DNA of 47,911 nt from Syntrophorhabdales bacterium. GTDB taxonomy: Bacteria > Desulfobacterota > Syntrophorhabdia > Syntrophorhabdales > Syntrophorhabdaceae. The notes below the pieces were generated by a model that made no database searches, was not told the DNA's origin, and worked only from the letters and a program-made list of their open reading frames with translations. Position numbers and translations under genes: made by a program. The stretch is from contig JAGPMK010000004.1 in the NCBI GenBank assembly GCA_018052995.1, forward strand, positions 1 to 47,911, in the 5' to 3' direction. Of this stretch, positions 39,735 to 47,911 are shown piece by piece (the stretch's first letter is position 1; every line of letters begins with the position of its first letter).

Positions 39735-40286
39735 ATGGCTCACAAAATGATGGATGATATCTGTGCCCACATAACTGACATAGCTGCCAACGCCATATCT
39801 GCAGAGGCGAAAAAAGTTTTTGTTTTTTTGGAAAAAAGCATCATCAATAATAGGTTGTATCTAAAGGTATCTGATAATGGAAAGGGGATGGATGAAGAGA
39901 CTGTTAAAAGGGTTATTGATCCTTTTTTCTCTACAAAAACAGGGCGTAAGGTAGGGCTAGGCATCCCTCTACTTAAGGGCACTGCTGAGACCTGCGGTGG
40001 CTATTTTAATATAAAAAGCAATCCAGGTAAAGGCACTGAGATAGAGGCATCCTTTCAGCTGGACCACCCTGACCTACCACCTATAGGAAGGCTGAAGGAT
40101 ACCATCCTAATACTTACTGTAAGCAATCCAGAGGCTGATTTTTTATTCAACATAAAAAACGACGTCGTCAATTTCATCTTTGATACTGAGGAAATAAAGG
40201 GACTCCTAGATGGTATGCCCATTAACAGTCCTGAAGTGATAAAATTTTTAACCAATTATCTTGACGAACATCTGAAATTTATTTAA
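39735..40286 (+). CDS. Orphan HATPase (histidine-kinase-like ATP-binding) protein
   Basis: A 183-residue protein whose first 110 residues are a HATPase_c domain: N box HITDIAANAISAEA, G1 box DNGKGM and G2 box GLGIPLLKG. There is no sensor, phospho-acceptor histidine or membrane segment. A C-terminal part (about 115-183) has no recognised domain. Similar HATPase genes are known before NuoE/NuoF hydrogenase genes in other anaerobes, suggesting a regulatory or assembly role, but I cannot say which. It is the first gene after the sigma-54 promoter. No clear ribosome-binding site. Confidence 0.8.
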   Translation: MAHKMMDDICAHITDIAANAISAEAKKVFVFLEKSIINNRLYLKVSDNGKGMDEETVKRVIDPFFSTKTGRKVGLGIPLLKGTAETCGGYFNIKSNPGKGTEIEASFQLDHPDLPPIGRLKDTILILTVSNPEADFLFNIKNDVVNFIFDTEEIKGLLDGMPINSPEVIKFLTNYLDEHLKFI

Positions 40287-40317: not shown

Positions 40318-40677
40318 ATGAAGTTAGAAGATCTAAAAAAGATAAGGGAACAGGCATCCAGGGATATTGAATTAAGACAGAAACAGGCAAGGGTGAAGAT
40401 AGTGGTTGGCATGGGAACGAGCGGGATAGCAGCAGGCGCCCGGGATGTCCTGAAGGCTCTCCTTGATGAGATAGCCAGTCGCAATCTCACCGATGTTATG
40501 GTGACCCAGACAGGAGAAAAGGGCCTGGCCTCCCATGAACCCATAATTGAGGTCCATGAAGAGGGCAGGGATGTGGTTATCTATGGAAATATCGATGCGG
40601 ATAAGGCAAGAAAGATTATTGCCGAACACATAGTAAATCACAATCCTGTTTCAGAGTATGTAATAGAAGTTAAATAA
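40318..40677 (+). CDS. hndB: HndB-like thioredoxin-fold protein lacking the [2Fe-2S] cysteines
   Basis: A 119-residue protein of the HndB type, the small [2Fe-2S] thioredoxin-like subunit of tetrameric NADP-reducing hydrogenases. The framework is well kept (VVGMGTSGIAAGARDVLKAL, then TQTGEKGLASHEPIIEV). However, cysteines that the family usually has in GTCGIAAGAR and TGCKGLC are Ser, Glu and Ala, and the protein contains no cysteine at all. It cannot hold the usual cluster. AGGAGGGG gives a strong start. It lies 31 bases after the HATPase gene and before the NuoE-like gene. Confidence 0.88.
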   Translation: MKLEDLKKIREQASRDIELRQKQARVKIVVGMGTSGIAAGARDVLKALLDEIASRNLTDVMVTQTGEKGLASHEPIIEVHEEGRDVVIYGNIDADKARKIIAEHIVNHNPVSEYVIEVK

Positions 40678-40694
40678 AACAGGGGGTGATTATC

Positions 40695-41153
40695 TTGACC
40701 AGAGAAGAGATACTAAAGAAGTATGACCCAAGCCTTGATAACATACTCTATATACTCCATGACCTTCAAGACAACAACCCGCAGCACTATATTGCAAAAG
40801 AGGATATAGAGGCATGTGCCAATTATCTGAATATCCCCTATAGTTATATTCGTGGTGTGGTGACCTTTTACTCCATGTTCAGTCTGCAGCCAAGAGGCCG
40901 TTATATTATCAGGCTCTGTGAATCGCCTCCATGCCACCTAATGGGTTCAGAATCGCTCCTTGAATATCTGAAAAAGAGGCTAAAGGTGAACATAGGCGAG
41001 ACTACAGGGGATGGTGTGTTTACCCTTGAGCTTACAAGCTGCCTCGGCATATGCGGTGTAGCCCCTGCCATGATGATAAACGAAGAGATGGTAGGCAATC
41101 TCACGCCTGAAAAGGTTGATGCCATCCTCGAAGAAAGGAGACAGACCTCATGA
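40695..41153 (+). CDS. hndA: HndA/NuoE-like [2Fe-2S] hydrogenase subunit
   Basis: About 152 residues, the NuoE-type subunit of NAD(P)-linked hydrogenases. Four cluster cysteines are present: RLCESPPCHLMG (C-x4-C) and TSCLGICGVAP (C-x3-C). The helical N-terminal part contains YIRGVVTFYSMF. Start choice: a GTG at 40686 is possible, but AGGGGGTGAT (40681-40690) is nearly the full anti-Shine-Dalgarno complement and sits correctly for TTG 40695, which I prefer. The stop overlaps the hndC start as ATGA. Confidence 0.92.
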   Translation: MTREEILKKYDPSLDNILYILHDLQDNNPQHYIAKEDIEACANYLNIPYSYIRGVVTFYSMFSLQPRGRYIIRLCESPPCHLMGSESLLEYLKKRLKVNIGETTGDGVFTLELTSCLGICGVAPAMMINEEMVGNLTPEKVDAILEERRQTS

Positions 41154-42730
41154 ATATTGTCCGTAACCATATATTGATCAGTATAGATGCGGGCACCATT
41201 ATGTCTGGTGCCAGGGCTGTAGAAGATGCCCTTATAAAAGAATTAACAAAATACGGGCTGGATAAGGAGATATCTGTCCTTGAGACAGGGAGCCTTGGAA
41301 TAACAGGAAGGGGTGTTGTCCTTGTTGTATACCCTGAGGGTATCTACTATGCCAATGTCACAGCAAAGGATGTCCCTGAACTTGTGGAGGAACATCTGTT
41401 AAAAGGCAGGCCATTAAAAAGGCTTATCCTGACCGAGGCGCCAAAAAGGACCATTATAATAAAAGAAAAAACTGGTCTTTTAAAGGAACAGCCAAGAATA
41501 GTTTTGAAGAATTGTGGATTCATAAACCCTGAGAATATAGATGAATACATAGCTGCCGGCGGATATGAGGCAATTGCAAAAGCCTTACAGACCATGACCC
41601 CTGTGGATGTGGTAAATGAGGTTAAGGAATCAGGGCTTTTGGGAAGAGGTGGCGCTGGCTTTCCAACAGGTCTTAAGTGGGAATTCGCCATCAAAACACC
41701 AGGGGATGAAAAATTCGTCATATGTAATGCCGACGAGGGTGAGCCAGGGACATTCAAGGATAGGCTCATCCTTGAGGGAGATCCCCACAAACTTATAGAA
41801 GGCATGCTTATTGCAGGTTATGCAATAAAGGCTACAGTGGGTTTTGTGTATATAAGGGGAGAATATAGTCTCTCTATAGAGCGTATTGAAAAGGCAATAG
41901 CAGATGCAAGGGCATACGGGCTCCTCGGGAAGAACATACTCGAGAGTAGTTTCAATTTTGATATATTTGTAAAAAAAGGTGCCGGGGCATATATATGCGG
42001 TGAAGAGACAGCACTCATTGAATCCCTTGAAGGTAAGAGAGGCCACCCAAGAAACAAACCGCCTTTTCCGATAAATGCAGGTCTCTGGGGAAAACCAACC
42101 CTTGTGAATAATGTGGAGACACTGGCAAATGTCCCTGAGATTATAAGAAATGGTGCAGCATGGTATAAAGGTTATGGCACAGAAAAATGCAGCGGGACAA
42201 AGGTCTACACCATACTTGGTCATGTGGCAACACCTGGACTTATAGAGACACAGATGGGCACTACCCTGAAAGAGATCATATTTGAATACGGTGGCGGCAT
42301 AAAGGATGGAAAGGCATTTAAGGGTGCCCTCATAGGTGGTGCAGCAGGTGCCTTCATAGGCTCAGAGATGCTTGATGTGAAGATGGATTTTATAAACCTG
42401 AGAGAATATGCGGCAGCCCTTGGTTCCGGTGCAATCCTTGTAATGAACGAGGAGACAGATATGGTGGATATGCTAAAAAGCGTCCTCCATTTCTTTAAAC
42501 ATGAATCATGTGGACACTGCGTGCCGTGTCGACTCGGAACAGCGAAGCTTGTGGACATAATAGACAGGTTTGCCCTATCTAAAGGTAAAAGGAAGGATAT
42601 TGATGACCTCATAGATATAACCCAAGTAATGAAAGGCGCATCGTTCTGCCCCCTTGGACAATCAGTTTCCCTGCCAGTCTCAAGTGCACTGAAATATTTC
42701 AGGGATGAATTCATGGCAAGGGTATCTTAG
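41150..42730 (+). CDS. hndC: HndC/NuoF-like NAD(P)H-binding hydrogenase subunit, reduced form
   Basis: A 526-residue flavoprotein that exchanges electrons with NAD(P)H. The FMN/NADH region is intact (GRGGAGFPTGLKW, CNADEGEPGTFKDR, GAGAYICGEETAL), as is the NuoF [4Fe-4S] site (ESCGHCVPCRLGT with a later FCPLG). The N-terminal thioredoxin-like domain (about residues 1-90) keeps its fold, but all four cluster cysteines are Ser or Thr. The usual C-terminal double [4Fe-4S] ferredoxin domain is absent; the protein ends after KYFRDEFMARVS. It thus has fewer clusters than bifurcating HydB/HndC. Confidence 0.94.
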   Translation: MNIVRNHILISIDAGTIMSGARAVEDALIKELTKYGLDKEISVLETGSLGITGRGVVLVVYPEGIYYANVTAKDVPELVEEHLLKGRPLKRLILTEAPKRTIIIKEKTGLLKEQPRIVLKNCGFINPENIDEYIAAGGYEAIAKALQTMTPVDVVNEVKESGLLGRGGAGFPTGLKWEFAIKTPGDEKFVICNADEGEPGTFKDRLILEGDPHKLIEGMLIAGYAIKATVGFVYIRGEYSLSIERIEKAIADARAYGLLGKNILESSFNFDIFVKKGAGAYICGEETALIESLEGKRGHPRNKPPFPINAGLWGKPTLVNNVETLANVPEIIRNGAAWYKGYGTEKCSGTKVYTILGHVATPGLIETQMGTTLKEIIFEYGGGIKDGKAFKGALIGGAAGAFIGSEMLDVKMDFINLREYAAALGSGAILVMNEETDMVDMLKSVLHFFKHESCGHCVPCRLGTAKLVDIIDRFALSKGKRKDIDDLIDITQVMKGASFCPLGQSVSLPVSSALKYFRDEFMARVS

Positions 42731-42771: not shown

Positions 42772-44529
42772 ATGATCAAGGCAACTATTAATAATATAGA
42801 GGTAGAGGTTAAGGAAGGGACAACTATCCTTGAGGCTGCAAAAAAGGCTGGTTTTATTATACCCACCCTGTGCTACCATCCAGATCTAAAACCAAAGGGT
42901 TCATGCGGCATATGTGTGGTAGAGGTAGAGGGCATGCCAGCCCTTAAAAGGGCATGCATGACCGAGGTAGTCAATGGCTGGAGAATACACACAAATACCC
43001 CATCTGTAAGGACCACAAGAAAGACTTTAGTAGAACTTATACTTGCAGACCATGATATGGACTGCCCTACTTGTATAAAAAATAACCGTTGTGAGCTGCA
43101 GAGCCTGGCGGCAACGCTCGGCATCACAGATATTAGATACAGAAAGAGTGATGAAGCCAAAAAGAAGATAGACGATACAAGCCTATCCATCGTGAGAAAT
43201 CCCAATAAGTGTATCCTCTGCGAAAGATGCATCCAGGTATGTGAGGAGATCCAGACGGTCAATGCCCTTGCATTAAGTAAAAGAGGCTCAGAGACTATTA
43301 TTACGGATGCATTTGATGTGGGGATTGGAAACAGTGTGTGTGTAAATTGCGGACAATGCACTGTGTTCTGCCCTGTAGGTGCACTATATGAAAAAAGCGA
43401 TATAGAAAAGGTCTGGGAGGCAATCAATGACCCTGAAAAACATGTGGTAGTCCAGGAGGCGCCTGCCATAAGGGCGATGCTTGGCGAGGAGTTCGGTATG
43501 GAGCCTGGAACACTTGTGGCAGGAAAAATGCATGCAGCCCTTAGAAGGATGAGGTTTGATGCAGTCTTTGACACGAATTTTACTGCTGATTTAACCATCC
43601 TTGAGGAGGGGACAGAGATAGTAGGCAGGATAACAGGCGGCGGAAAACTACCTGTTATCACATCATGTAGCCCTGGCTGGGTAAAATTCATGGAGACATT
43701 CTATCCACATCTGTCAGAGTATGTATCAACTGCAAAATCTCCACAGCAGATGTTCGGCGCCCTTTCAAAGACATATTATGCAGAGATAAAAGGCATCCCC
43801 CCTGAAAAGATAGTGTCTGTATCTATTATGCCCTGCACTGCAAAGAAGTTTGAATGCAAAAGACCTGAGATGACAGATAGTGGTTATACTGATGTGGATT
43901 ATGTTCTCACTACCAGAGAGATTGCAAGGATGTTGAAGGAGGCAGGCATTGACTTAAAAGATATGCCTGATGAGCCTGCTGATGACCCAATGGGTGAATA
44001 TACAGGGGCTGCGACAATCTTTGGTGTAACAGGCGGTGTTATGGAGGCCGCACTTCGTTCAGCATACTTCCTTGTTACAGGCAGAGAGCTTGAGAATGTG
44101 GACATTGTGGCTGTAAGGGGTATGGAAGGCATCAAAGAGGCAGAGATAGACGTGGGTGGTTTAAAATTAAAGGTTGCCGTTGCCCATGGCCTTGGCAATG
44201 CCCGTAAGATACTTGATAAGGTAACAGGGCAACTCAAAAATAATGGCAAGAGCGAATATCATGCCATTGAGATTATGGCATGTCCAGGTGGATGTGTAGG
44301 TGGCGGTGGTCAGCCCTGGGGTAGCGATATGGCACGAAGGGCACGTAGAGGAGAGACCCTCCTTGAGGAAGATAGGTCCCTACCTTATCGTCGTTCCCAT
44401 GAAAATCCATCAATAAAACTTGTATATGAACGATACCTTGAAAAACCAAATTCAGAAAAGGCACACCATCTCCTGCATACGCACTATTTCAAAAGAAGCA
44501 GGATTGACGGGAAGATAATAAATGATTGA
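42772..44529 (+). CDS. hndD: [FeFe] hydrogenase catalytic subunit (HndD/HydA-like)
   Basis: A 585-residue hydrogen-activating subunit. In order: plant-type [2Fe-2S] domain (GSCGICVVEVEG), the His-Cys3 cluster (HDMDCPTCIKNNRC), two [4Fe-4S] clusters (CILCERCIQVC, CVNCGQCTVFCP) and the H-cluster domain. H-cluster cysteines are Cys299 (TSCSPGW), Cys355 (MPCTAKKFE), Cys504 and Cys508 (ACPGGCVGGGGQP). The second residue of the usual TSCCP is Ser300. The C-terminal small-subunit-like tail is fused. It accepts or donates electrons through HndA and HndC. No maturation genes (hydE, hydF, hydG) are in the window. Confidence 0.96.
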   Translation: MIKATINNIEVEVKEGTTILEAAKKAGFIIPTLCYHPDLKPKGSCGICVVEVEGMPALKRACMTEVVNGWRIHTNTPSVRTTRKTLVELILADHDMDCPTCIKNNRCELQSLAATLGITDIRYRKSDEAKKKIDDTSLSIVRNPNKCILCERCIQVCEEIQTVNALALSKRGSETIITDAFDVGIGNSVCVNCGQCTVFCPVGALYEKSDIEKVWEAINDPEKHVVVQEAPAIRAMLGEEFGMEPGTLVAGKMHAALRRMRFDAVFDTNFTADLTILEEGTEIVGRITGGGKLPVITSCSPGWVKFMETFYPHLSEYVSTAKSPQQMFGALSKTYYAEIKGIPPEKIVSVSIMPCTAKKFECKRPEMTDSGYTDVDYVLTTREIARMLKEAGIDLKDMPDEPADDPMGEYTGAATIFGVTGGVMEAALRSAYFLVTGRELENVDIVAVRGMEGIKEAEIDVGGLKLKVAVAHGLGNARKILDKVTGQLKNNGKSEYHAIEIMACPGGCVGGGGQPWGSDMARRARRGETLLEEDRSLPYRRSHENPSIKLVYERYLEKPNSEKAHHLLHTHYFKRSRIDGKIIND

Positions 44530-44559: not shown

Positions 44560-45057
44560 ATGGATTTAGAACATCAATGTCAATGTGCCCAGCTTAATGA
44601 AGAAGAATTATATCCAAGACTCGAAGAGATGATAGAGCAGCATAAAGGAAGACCAACGGAGTTAATTATGGCACTCCACAAGGCACAGAACCTCTTTGGC
44701 TATCTCCCGAAAAAAGCACAGGAGATAATATCAGAGAGACTGAATGTCCCTATCAGCACTGTGTGTGGGGTCATATCCTTTTACAGTTTTTTTTCTACAG
44801 TCCCGAAGGGCCGTCACACCATAAAGGTATGTCTTGGCACAGCATGCTATGTTCGAGGAGGCCAGCGGACCCTTGAAAGGGTTGAAAAAGAACTCAAAAC
44901 AAAGGTAGGGGGCACAACAGAAGATAGGCGCTTCTCTGTTGATGTTGTGCGTTGCATTGGTGCCTGCGGATTAGCACCCGCCATGCTTGTAGATAATGAT
45001 GTATATGGCAGGGTTAAATCCACAAAGATTATGGACATACTCAAAAAATACGAGTAA
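44560..45057 (+). CDS. Second NuoE/HydC-like [2Fe-2S] subunit
   Basis: A 165-residue NuoE-type protein, distinct from the upstream copy. Cluster cysteines are in KVCLGTACYVRGG and VRCIGACGLAP; the helical domain has VCGVISFYSFF. It is shorter than respiratory NuoE and resembles HydC and StnA, the small subunits of soluble NAD-linked complexes. GGAGGAG precedes the ATG. It lies 30 bases after the hydrogenase gene and nine before the NuoF-GltD fusion, with which it very probably pairs. Confidence 0.93.
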   Translation: MDLEHQCQCAQLNEEELYPRLEEMIEQHKGRPTELIMALHKAQNLFGYLPKKAQEIISERLNVPISTVCGVISFYSFFSTVPKGRHTIKVCLGTACYVRGGQRTLERVEKELKTKVGGTTEDRRFSVDVVRCIGACGLAPAMLVDNDVYGRVKSTKIMDILKKYE

Positions 45058-45066
45058 GGAGGAAAA

Positions 45067-47911
45067 ATGGCTACAGAACTGTTTCGTGCACATTTGCTGG
45101 TCTGTGCAGGTGCCGCATGTGTCTCTTCAGGGTGTCGCGAGATACGCGATGCCTTTATTATAAAGATCCGTGAATATGGGCTTCAGGATGAGGTTAAGGT
45201 AATAGAGACAGGCTGTGTTGGCTCATGTGATTTAGGACCCCTTGCCCTGGTATACCCTGAAGGTATATTTTATCAGAAGCTTAAACCTGAAGACGCTGAT
45301 ACCATTGTATCAGAACACCTCCTAAAGGGGAGGATTGTTGAACATCTACTTTACAAGGAGCCCATAACAGCAAAGGCTGTGCCCTCCCTCAAAAGCATAG
45401 ATTTTTTCAAATATCAGGAAAAGGTTGTTCTAAGAAACTGCGGTATAATCAACCCCCTTAATATTGAGGAGTATATTGCAAGGGATGGCTACATGGCACT
45501 GGGCAAGGTCCTCACCTCCATGACCCAAGATGAGGTAATAGAGGAGGTGACAAAATCTGGCTTAAGGGGTAGGGGCGGCGGAGGCTTCCCCACCGGGCTA
45601 AAATGGAAATTTGCCCGACAGGCAGAGGGTGATGTAAAATATGTTGTCTGTAATGCTGACGAGGGCGACCCTGGGGCATTCATGGACAGGAGTGTCCTTG
45701 AGGGCGACCCCCACAGCGTGATAGAGGCAATGGCAATAGCAGGCTATGCCATAGGGGCAAAACAGGGTTATGTCTATGTCAGGGCAGAATATCCCCTTGC
45801 CATAGAACGTCTCACATGGGCAATAGGGCAGGCAAGGGAATATAAATTCCTTGGCAAAAACATCTTTGAAACAGATTTTGACTTTGATCTCGATATTAGG
45901 ATAGGTGCTGGTGCCTTTGTCTGCGGGGAGGAGACAGCCCTTATGATATCCATAGAGGGAAAAAGGGGTGAACCAAGACCAAGACCGCCTTATCCTGTTG
46001 TGAAGGGACTCTTTGATTCACCTACGCTTCTCAATAACGTGGAGACCTATGCAAACATACCTGCCATTATTCTTAAAGGCGCTAATTGGTATGCCCAGTT
46101 CGGCACTGAAAAAAGCAAAGGCACAAAGGTATTCGCCCTTGCAGGCGCAGTAAATAATACAGGCCTTGTTGAGGTCCCCATGGGGACAAGGCTTGGTGAC
46201 CTCATATTCAATATAGGTGGTGGGATAAAAAATAAGAAAAAATTCAAGGCAGCCCAGCTTGGAGGACCATCTGGCGGATGTATACCTATTCAGCATTTAA
46301 ACACACCCATAGATTATGAATCAGTTGTTCAGTTGGGTGCAATTGTGGGTTCAGGGGGTCTAATTGTAGCCGACGAAGACACATGTATGGTTGACTTTGC
46401 CCGTTTCTTTCTTGATTTTACCCAGGATGAGTCGTGCGGCAAGTGCCCACCCTGTAGAATAGGCACAAAGAGGATGCTTGAGATTCTGACCCGTATTACC
46501 CATGGCGAGGGACAGGAAGATGATATAGATAAGCTTGTAGAGCTTGCAACGCGTATCAAGCAATCAGCCCTGTGCGGGCTCGGGCAGACAGCACCTAACC
46601 CTGTCTTATCAACGCTCCGTTTCTTCAGGGATGAATACGAGGAGCATATAAGGGATAAGAGGTGTGCTGCAGGCGTATGTAGTTCCCTCTTTGATGCACC
46701 CTGTCAGAATGCATGCCCCACAGACCAGAATGCCTGGGGGTATGTAACGCTTATCAGCGAGGGAAGATTCAAAGAGGCAATATCTGTAATAAAGGCAGAT
46801 AACCCCTTCCCTGGCGTATGCGGAAGGGTCTGTTTCCATCCCTGCGAGAGCAAATGTAGAAGGGCGCAGATTGATGAACCTGTTGCTATATGTGCACTGA
46901 AAAGGTTTGTAGCTGACTATGACAGAAACTCCTTTGAGCCCTTTAAACCTGGGATTGCACCGTCAAACAACAAAAAGGTGGCTATAATAGGCGCAGGCCC
47001 TGCAGGTCTTACAACAGCCTATTATCTTGCATGTAAAGGTTATAAGGTTACAGTGTTTGAGGCACTTCCTGTTGCAGGCGGTATGCTTGCAGTAGGCATC
47101 CCTGATTACAGGTTACCAAGAGAGATACTCGATTACGAGGTAAAAACAATAACAGACCTGGGGGTTGAGATAAAATATAATACTGCTTTAGGCAAAGACA
47201 TCACTATTGAAGGGCTTTCAAGGGATGGATATTCTGCTATACTCCTCGCAACAGGTGCACATAAAGGTCAGATGCTCGGTATCCCAGGAGATGGGGCAGA
47301 GGGTGTTCTTGATGGCATCACCTTCCTCCGCAACCTGAATCTTGGAAAGGCAGTAAAGGTAGAGGGGAATGTGGCAGTGATAGGCGGGGGGAATGTGGCA
47401 ATAGATGCGGCAAGATCTGCCCTTAGGATAGGCGCCAAGGATGTCTTTGTGCTATATCGTCGGGAGAAGGAGGATATGCCTGCATATGATGAGGAGATTG
47501 CAGAGGCAGAGAAAGAGGGTGTAAAGATACATACCCTTGTGGCGCCAAAAAGCATCATTGAAAAGGCCGGCAAGGTCCAGGCAATTGAATGTGTCCGCAT
47601 GTCCCTGGGAGAGTTTGATGCTGGAGGAAGGCGTAAACCCATTCCCATTGAGGGGTCAGAATTCACAATCCCTGTAGAGACAGTTATTGCTGCCATCGGG
47701 CAGGTGCCTGATACATCCTATCTGAACGGTGATGGTATTAAGGTGGCAAGAAACGGAACCATTGAGGTGGATACAAAGAGCCTCTCAACAGCAAAAACCG
47801 GTGTCTTTGCAGCTGGTGATAATGTAAGGGGACCAGCAAGTGTTGTAGAGGCGATTTCAGATGGCAAAAAATCAGCCCGGTCAATAGATATCTATCTTGG
47901 CGGCGATGGAG
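45067..47911 (+). CDS. NuoF-GltD fusion oxidoreductase (partial at window end)
   Basis: At least 948 residues; the 3' end is beyond the window. (1) Residues about 1-95: thioredoxin-like [2Fe-2S] domain with intact cysteines (VCAGAACVSSGC, ETGCVGSCD). (2) About 110-525: NuoF core with GRGGGGFPTGLKW, CNADEGDPGAFMDR and [4Fe-4S] site SCGKCPPCRIGT. (3) From about 532: GltD-type N-terminal domain with two [4Fe-4S] clusters (APCQNACPTD, GVCGRVCFHPCESKC). (4) From about 638: FAD and NAD(P)-binding domains (VAIIGAGPAGLTTAYYL, VAVIGGGNVAIDAARSA, FAAGDNVRGP). It resembles StnB joined to StnC of the Sporomusa-type transhydrogenase, so NADH/NADPH electron exchange is likely. Confidence 0.93.
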   Translation, partial: MATELFRAHLLVCAGAACVSSGCREIRDAFIIKIREYGLQDEVKVIETGCVGSCDLGPLALVYPEGIFYQKLKPEDADTIVSEHLLKGRIVEHLLYKEPITAKAVPSLKSIDFFKYQEKVVLRNCGIINPLNIEEYIARDGYMALGKVLTSMTQDEVIEEVTKSGLRGRGGGGFPTGLKWKFARQAEGDVKYVVCNADEGDPGAFMDRSVLEGDPHSVIEAMAIAGYAIGAKQGYVYVRAEYPLAIERLTWAIGQAREYKFLGKNIFETDFDFDLDIRIGAGAFVCGEETALMISIEGKRGEPRPRPPYPVVKGLFDSPTLLNNVETYANIPAIILKGANWYAQFGTEKSKGTKVFALAGAVNNTGLVEVPMGTRLGDLIFNIGGGIKNKKKFKAAQLGGPSGGCIPIQHLNTPIDYESVVQLGAIVGSGGLIVADEDTCMVDFARFFLDFTQDESCGKCPPCRIGTKRMLEILTRITHGEGQEDDIDKLVELATRIKQSALCGLGQTAPNPVLSTLRFFRDEYEEHIRDKRCAAGVCSSLFDAPCQNACPTDQNAWGYVTLISEGRFKEAISVIKADNPFPGVCGRVCFHPCESKCRRAQIDEPVAICALKRFVADYDRNSFEPFKPGIAPSNNKKVAIIGAGPAGLTTAYYLACKGYKVTVFEALPVAGGMLAVGIPDYRLPREILDYEVKTITDLGVEIKYNTALGKDITIEGLSRDGYSAILLATGAHKGQMLGIPGDGAEGVLDGITFLRNLNLGKAVKVEGNVAVIGGGNVAIDAARSALRIGAKDVFVLYRREKEDMPAYDEEIAEAEKEGVKIHTLVAPKSIIEKAGKVQAIECVRMSLGEFDAGGRRKPIPIEGSEFTIPVETVIAAIGQVPDTSYLNGDGIKVARNGTIEVDTKSLSTAKTGVFAAGDNVRGPASVVEAISDGKKSARSIDIYLGGDG

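Follow-up and report, generated by a model that had tools for sequence, protein, structure and literature searches.

Cys-less HydD in a hydrogenase operon

The window, the whole 47,911-nucleotide stretch of DNA analysed here, belongs to a 1.9-Mb MAG of the Syntrophorhabdaceae type (Desulfobacterota), whose closest relatives bear the labels Syntrophorhabdaceae or Deltaproteobacteria, and carries a hydrogenase operon on its forward strand (Table 1). The hydD open reading frame starts with ATG, is preceded by a strong Shine-Dalgarno sequence (AAGGAGGGG) and encodes 119 residues, none of which is Cys. An earlier sequence-only reading had reported this absence together with the motifs GMGTSGIAAG and QTGEKGLASHEP, both of which were exact, and had proposed that Ser, Glu and Ala replaced Cys at the cluster positions. 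Alignment to Cys-bearing HydDs confirmed these replacements, with Ser35, Glu67 and Ala71 occupying the ligand columns. The number of ligand Cys in Cys-bearing HydDs is three, however, and not four. That a chain of 119 residues includes no Cys is unremarkable by itself, as the chance expectation was ~0.10 from the composition of the window proteins and 0.27 from that of the window non-hydrogenase proteins. By contrast, chance does not account for the finding that precisely the three ligand columns are replaced while the frame around them is conserved, a pattern common to the first 30 relatives fetched and to the 98 clade members described below.

Table 1. Features of the hydrogenase operon in the window
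Feature	Position	Strand	Evidence
HATPase_c protein (HydE/HisK-like), usual gene upstream of hydD	39735..40286	+	Pfam PF02518, E 2.4e-15
HydD/HndB-like subunit, 119 aa, no Cys	40318..40677	+	Translation, alignment, AlphaFold2, Foldseek
HydD N-terminal helix (residues 3-23), outside the ferredoxin domain	40318..40386	+	Model secondary structure
HydC/NuoE-type subunit; Cys78, 83, 119 and 123 for [2Fe-2S]	40686..41153	+	PF01257, E 1.4e-48
HydB/NuoF-type subunit, 526 aa, putative non-bifurcating type	41150..42730	+	Pfam, alignment, Losey 2020 residues
HydB N-terminal domain, predicted thioredoxin-like, four ligand Cys replaced	41150..41485	+	Alignment, AlphaFold2, Foldseek
HydA, [FeFe]-hydrogenase group A6	42772..44529	+	NF040763, 859.5 bits (cut-off 765)
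Second HydC/NuoE-type subunit	44560..45057	+	PF01257, E 4e-48
Second HydB, joined to a GltD-like domain and continuing beyond the window	45067..47911	+	Residue marks

Membership of the window protein in the HydD/HndB family was indicated by its homology to Cys-bearing HydDs (median identity 43%, maximum 54%, with a common alignment and tree) and by its being encoded as a stand-alone gene for ~120 aa within a hyd cluster. Such clusters commonly include a HATPase gene, which adjoins hydD in many mapped loci. The Cys ligands of a [2Fe-2S] thioredoxin-like ferredoxin were absent (0 Cys; S/E/A in the ligand columns). A Pfam search with the window HydD returned no match, and its score against NF041612 was 41.7 bits, below the cut-off of 150. 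Searches of Pfam and of PDB sequences turned up neither a dedicated HydD family nor a solved structure with a HydD chain.

The AlphaFold2 model of HydD, built from an alignment of 132 sequences, had a pLDDT of 87.2. Foldseek matched it to the N-terminal domains of NfnB and StnB (rmsd 1.1-1.4 Å) and to the [2Fe-2S] ferredoxin of A. aeolicus. The thioredoxin-like ferredoxin fold that characterizes the HydD/HndB family is thus predicted to be intact. Model confidence was lower in the N-terminal helix (pLDDT 62-76). Five residues of this helix (L6, R10, E11, L19 and R20) are near-invariant across the Cys-less clade, and the helix may be a docking element. The dN/dS values for hydD were 0.019 and 0.032 in comparisons with two loci of the nearest species (L058 and L059), rough values because dS was near or above 0.8; they were similarly low in hydB and hydA.

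The first HydB of the operon has Ser, Thr, Ser and Thr at the four ligand positions of its N-terminal domain, so the second, parallel loss of Cys that had been proposed for HndC (here HydB) is real. AlphaFold2 modelled this domain with a pLDDT of 82, and Foldseek returned the N-terminus of Acetobacterium woodii HydB and A. aeolicus ferredoxin, which predicts that the thioredoxin-like fold has been retained here as well. In the remainder of the protein, the FMN domain is retained, as is one [4Fe-4S] site (Cys454, 457, 460 and 500). Compared with solved bifurcating HydBs, it has T/K for A/M near NADH, Y for F near FMN and GGAAG in place of GGPSG, and it has no C-terminal Fer4 domain. Published marks of non-bifurcating NADH-dependent HydB are T/S and K/S/A near NADH, Y near FMN and no GGPSG (PMC7311640; PMC5626996). 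Judged by its residues, the window HydB bears the marks of a non-bifurcating, NADH-dependent enzyme (T/K, Y and GGAAG). Neither the N-terminal [2Fe-2S] site nor the C-terminal [4Fe-4S] site is present in it, and the HydA belongs to the NADH-dependent group A6.

In the second HydB, the bifurcating marks (A/M, F and GGPSG) are all in place and none of the four N-terminal Cys is lost, which makes it an internal control within the same operon. After it, a second HydA is encoded on the same contig (C66:48390-50111). In the longer stretch covering this region (L258, G000:C66:44000-60000), the HydB-GltD fusion is interrupted by a run of N. Downstream of the second HydA, reading of the sequence indicated ORFs resembling HydF maturase and PEP carboxykinase.

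A Cys-less HydD clade in about twelve phyla

The first 30 relatives that we fetched were all without Cys. Among 173 distinct HydD sequences, 72 read C/C/C in the ligand columns and 98, a set fetched partly by pattern, read S/E/A or S/E/S and contained no Cys. Ser71 was present in about half of the Cys-less clade, and in one member (L213) Gly replaces Glu. A motif scan of genome contigs yielded 223 loci encoding HydD relatives, of which we kept 80; the scan used Cys-less patterns and was thus enriched for Cys-less HydD. The 80 loci placed Cys-less HydD in about twelve phyla as labelled in the MAG records, including Desulfobacterota, Cloacimonadota, Bipolaricaulota, Aminicenantes, Acidobacteria, Spirochaetes, WOR-3/Hydrothermota, Neomarinimicrobiota, Caldiserica, Mcinerneyibacteriota and others.

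We also ran profile searches independent of the Cys-less patterns in Desulfobacterota, Firmicutes and Bipolaricaulota. Cys-less HydD was present in 12 out of 395 Desulfobacterota genomes (bit score of at least 170). All 29 Firmicutes HydDs sampled were Cys-bearing, and the distinct Bipolaricaulota HydDs comprised 15 with S-E-A/S and one with S-G-A. In a HydD tree calculated with the ligand columns removed (117 columns, with many forks unresolved), the S/E clade formed one group (support 98) with two long-branch Cys-bearing rows inside it, and a separate pair of losses read T/D/E and V/H/D.

Among the sequences compared, the Cys-less state is thus fixed as the rule in a large HydD clade spanning about twelve phyla. 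The sequence-only reading had framed it as a loss in this operon, which was not borne out given that the norm is clade-wide. The same reading had considered that the family might normally lack these Cys; this holds inside the clade, but not in Firmicutes or in most Desulfobacterota.

Among Cys-bearing HydDs, such as those of Desulfobacterota (for example, L139 and L150), about half carry His31 (VHMGTC) close to the first cluster motif, and others have Gly there. A [2Fe-2S] site with three Cys and one His is conceivable in the His31 proteins. Three loci titled Firmicutes (L063, L064 and L265; UBA4795 and UBA2203) carry an operon of the Syntrophorhabdaceae type with a HydD that is 75-76% identical; either the genes were transferred or the record titles are misleading.

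Clusters with two HydB/HydC pairs

Most clusters with Cys-less HydD contain two HydB/HydC pairs, in which one HydB is Cys-bearing and of the bifurcating type. In Syntrophorhabdaceae and their kin, the order is ATPase, HydD, HydC, HydB (non-bifurcating, Cys-less), HydA, HydC, HydB-GltD (bifurcating) and HydA. In Cloacimonadota and Hydrothermota, it is HydC, ATPase, HydD, HydB (bifurcating), HydC, HydB (non-bifurcating, Cys-less) and HydA. We detected no HydA after the Cys-less HydB in the stretches from Aminicenantes and Spirochaetes. Non-bifurcating HydBs in Candidatus Cloacimonas, as well as genomes with both types of HydB, have been described (Losey 2020; PMC7311640).

In three Bipolaricaulota loci (L319, L321 and L322), Cys-less HydD and HydB stand with [NiFe] small and large subunits, which lie in between, instead of [FeFe] HydA, and the cluster resembles HydABCSL by Pfam matches for its subunits. 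In L314 (3633-5819), a HydD relative is joined to the N-terminus of a bifurcating, Cys-bearing HydB in an apparent fusion of 729 aa, and in a Firmicutes locus (L253:5171-6100) the ATPase is joined to a Cys-bearing HydD in an apparent fusion of 310 aa. Both fusions are single loci, in which a missed stop or a frameshift is possible.

Co-occurrence of Cys-less HydD and Cys-less HydB

Among loci with at least 5 kb of sequence downstream of hydD, a HydB with a Cys-less N-terminal domain was present at 61 out of 64 with Cys-less HydD and at 0 out of 50 with Cys-bearing HydD. By profile score, the two traits occurred in the identical 12 of the 395 Desulfobacterota genomes; a thirteenth (G053) had a T/D/E HydD and a Cys-less HydB, both with lower scores. 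Of 99 Cloacimonadota genomes, for which thresholds were set by eye, 55 had both traits, 6 had Cys-less HydD only, 1 had Cys-less HydB only (at a contig end) and 37 had neither. One of the six HydD-only genomes (G874) encodes a non-bifurcating HydB whose N-terminal domain is missing (L309). The genuine exceptions, with Cys-less HydD and no Cys-less HydB, were three Cloacimonadota loci (L307, L308 and L311). The expectation that the two losses go together was therefore upheld by the counts, although not as an invariable rule.

Two Cloacimonadota loci (L309 and L312) have, beside Cys-less HydD, a non-bifurcating HydB without the entire N-terminal domain, possibly a later step of the same loss. 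A table of the nearest HydB had pointed to an absence of coupling, with Cys-less HydD often accompanied only by Cys-bearing bifurcating HydB; this was discarded when a map of every HydB at each locus placed the Cys-less HydB further downstream. L138, likewise listed as having Cys-less HydD without Cys-less HydB, was shown by a longer stretch (L305) to have one.

The Cys-less HydBs form one clade (support 100), as do nearly all Cys-less HydDs, and because each trait is nearly one clade, the counts do not represent independent events. The co-occurrence could accordingly reflect one inherited or transferred gene cluster in which the two losses are functionally unconnected, an explanation that fits either of the roles for HydD discussed below and that we consider somewhat unlikely. 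Against it, both traits are still kept across two gene orders and with either [FeFe] or [NiFe] catalytic subunits. In addition, a second loss of Cys from HydD, involving other residues, occurs with the same type of HydB: in L305, a T/D/E HydD has a Cys-bearing HydD copy next to it, and the accompanying HydB branches early within the Cys-less HydB clade. L305 is one partial replicate of the co-loss.

The loss of Cys might also be a mere consequence of lost bifurcation. We found this insufficient, because Firmicutes HydBs with the non-bifurcating marks keep the four N-terminal Cys; these HydBs stand beside Cys-bearing HydD.

Possible roles of Cys-less HydD

Our preferred reading, held with moderate confidence, is that HydD is a redox-silent pseudo-ferredoxin with a structural or docking role on the HydB module of an NADH-linked hydrogenase. 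HydD would bind no cluster and carry no electrons, and it would contact HydB. The hydrogenase would use NADH without ferredoxin, with electrons passing from NADH to the FMN of HydB, then to the HydB [4Fe-4S] cluster and on to HydA, so that HydD and the HydB N-terminal domain would both lie outside the electron path. Contact between the two proteins is suggested by the copurification of T. tengcongensis HydD with its enzyme (PMC4694547) and by the joining of a HydD relative to the HydB N-terminus in L314, although the partner in L314 is the Cys-bearing bifurcating HydB and not the Cys-less one. The HydB N-terminal domain would in any case not be the sole docking site, because L309 and L312 keep Cys-less HydD without that domain. 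Selection for a structural or docking role had been proposed in the sequence-only reading; the selection is supported by dN/dS of ~0.02-0.03 and a fold predicted to be intact, whereas docking is plausible.

An assembly or regulatory role is almost as good a fit as docking, and we assign it a lower but appreciable probability. HydD would then be a factor acting with the neighbouring HATPase and not a subunit, and Cys-bearing HydD would hold a [2Fe-2S] cluster or deliver it to the HydB N-terminal domain. After the loss of the cluster from this domain, HydD could dispense with its own Cys, which would explain the co-loss. The ATPase gene and hydD are neighbours in many clusters and fused in L253. 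Purified NiFe-HydABCSL of A. mobile lacked HydD and HisK, both of which were assumed to serve maturation or regulation (PMC8880783), HydD and HisK have been placed outside the holoenzyme (PMC9304861), and A. woodii HydE is thought to be active in assembly or signalling (PMC3315566). However, HydD of T. tengcongensis copurifies with the hydrogenase complex HydABC (PMC4694547), the HydD of A. woodii is regarded as a subunit (PMC6288185), and most Cys-less HydD clusters also hold a Cys-bearing bifurcating HydB, which would still need a cluster donor.

Binding of iron or of a [2Fe-2S] cluster by HydD, with oxygen ligands supplied by Ser35, Glu67 and, in about half of the clade, Ser71, is in our view very unlikely. 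The replacing residues are conserved across the clade, and the fold search returned the C55S and C59S variants of A. aeolicus ferredoxin (1m2b and 1m2d), which we take to keep a serine-ligated cluster. The window HydD, however, offers only two oxygen ligands (S/E/A), L213 has Gly for Glu, the independent loss uses T/D/E, and no [2Fe-2S] site held entirely by oxygen ligands is known to us. The least probable reading is that HydD is a decaying remnant without function, as might be supposed from the loss of the presumed cofactor ligands and from the three Cloacimonadota loci in which Cys-less HydD lacks a Cys-less HydB. The substitution pattern disfavours decay, as do ORFs that are intact in about twelve phyla, a conserved gene order and many invariant non-ligand positions.

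As for the double clusters, the two HydB/HydC pairs, one bifurcating and one not, might form a single switchable assembly in which the pseudo-ferredoxins (HydD and the HydB N-terminal domain) replace a former [2Fe-2S] relay and insulate an NADH-only branch from ferredoxin. We consider this improbable; if true, the cell would choose between bifurcating and straight NADH-to-H2 flow, and one module would work with both [FeFe] and [NiFe] catalytic parts.

HydD has so far been an unexplained extra of bifurcating hydrogenases, present in one purified complex and not in another. The Cys-less clade amounts to a natural deletion experiment on the roles of HydD and of the HydB N-terminal cluster, and Cys-less HydD is a sequence marker for clusters with bifurcating and non-bifurcating HydBs in syntrophs and uncultured anaerobes.

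Comparison with known systems

A cofactor-free HydD has already been described, since HydD of A. woodii apparently has no cofactor binding site (PMC3315566, PMC6288185). In a search of the open-access literature, we came across no description of the Cys-less HydD clade, of its co-occurrence with Cys-less HydB or of the double-HydB cluster. The A. woodii protein (hydCEDBA; HydABCD) is likewise a small extra subunit beside an ATPase gene (HydE) and HydB, but belongs to a bifurcating enzyme; this likeness follows the published description, and the 29 Firmicutes HydDs that we sampled all have three Cys. HndB of Desulfovibrio fructosovorans and HydD of Thermoanaerobacter (Caldanaerobacter) tengcongensis, which we liken by description and not by alignment, are also stand-alone HydD-type subunits of tetrameric hydrogenases. 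The T. tengcongensis protein was predicted to be an Fe-S carrier (PMC4694547), a function that the sequence of the window HydD would preclude.

In both fold and sequence, the nearest solved relatives of HydD are StnB of Sporomusa ovata and the N-terminal domains of NfnB. Unlike HydD, the StnB/NfnB domain is covalently part of HydB and has Cys ligands, and one [2Fe-2S] cluster (B2) has been reported in StnB (PMC10482914).

Hyd1ABC of Syntrophomonas wolfei and HydAB of Syntrophus aciditrophicus are, as is proposed for the window enzyme, non-bifurcating, NADH-dependent [FeFe]-hydrogenases that work without ferredoxin, and in S. wolfei HydB neither the N-terminal [2Fe-2S] nor the C-terminal [4Fe-4S] site is present (PMC5626996, PMC7311640). 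S. wolfei HydB1, at 407 aa, is missing the N-terminal cluster, whereas the window HydB retains the domain in a Cys-less form and has HydD beside it.
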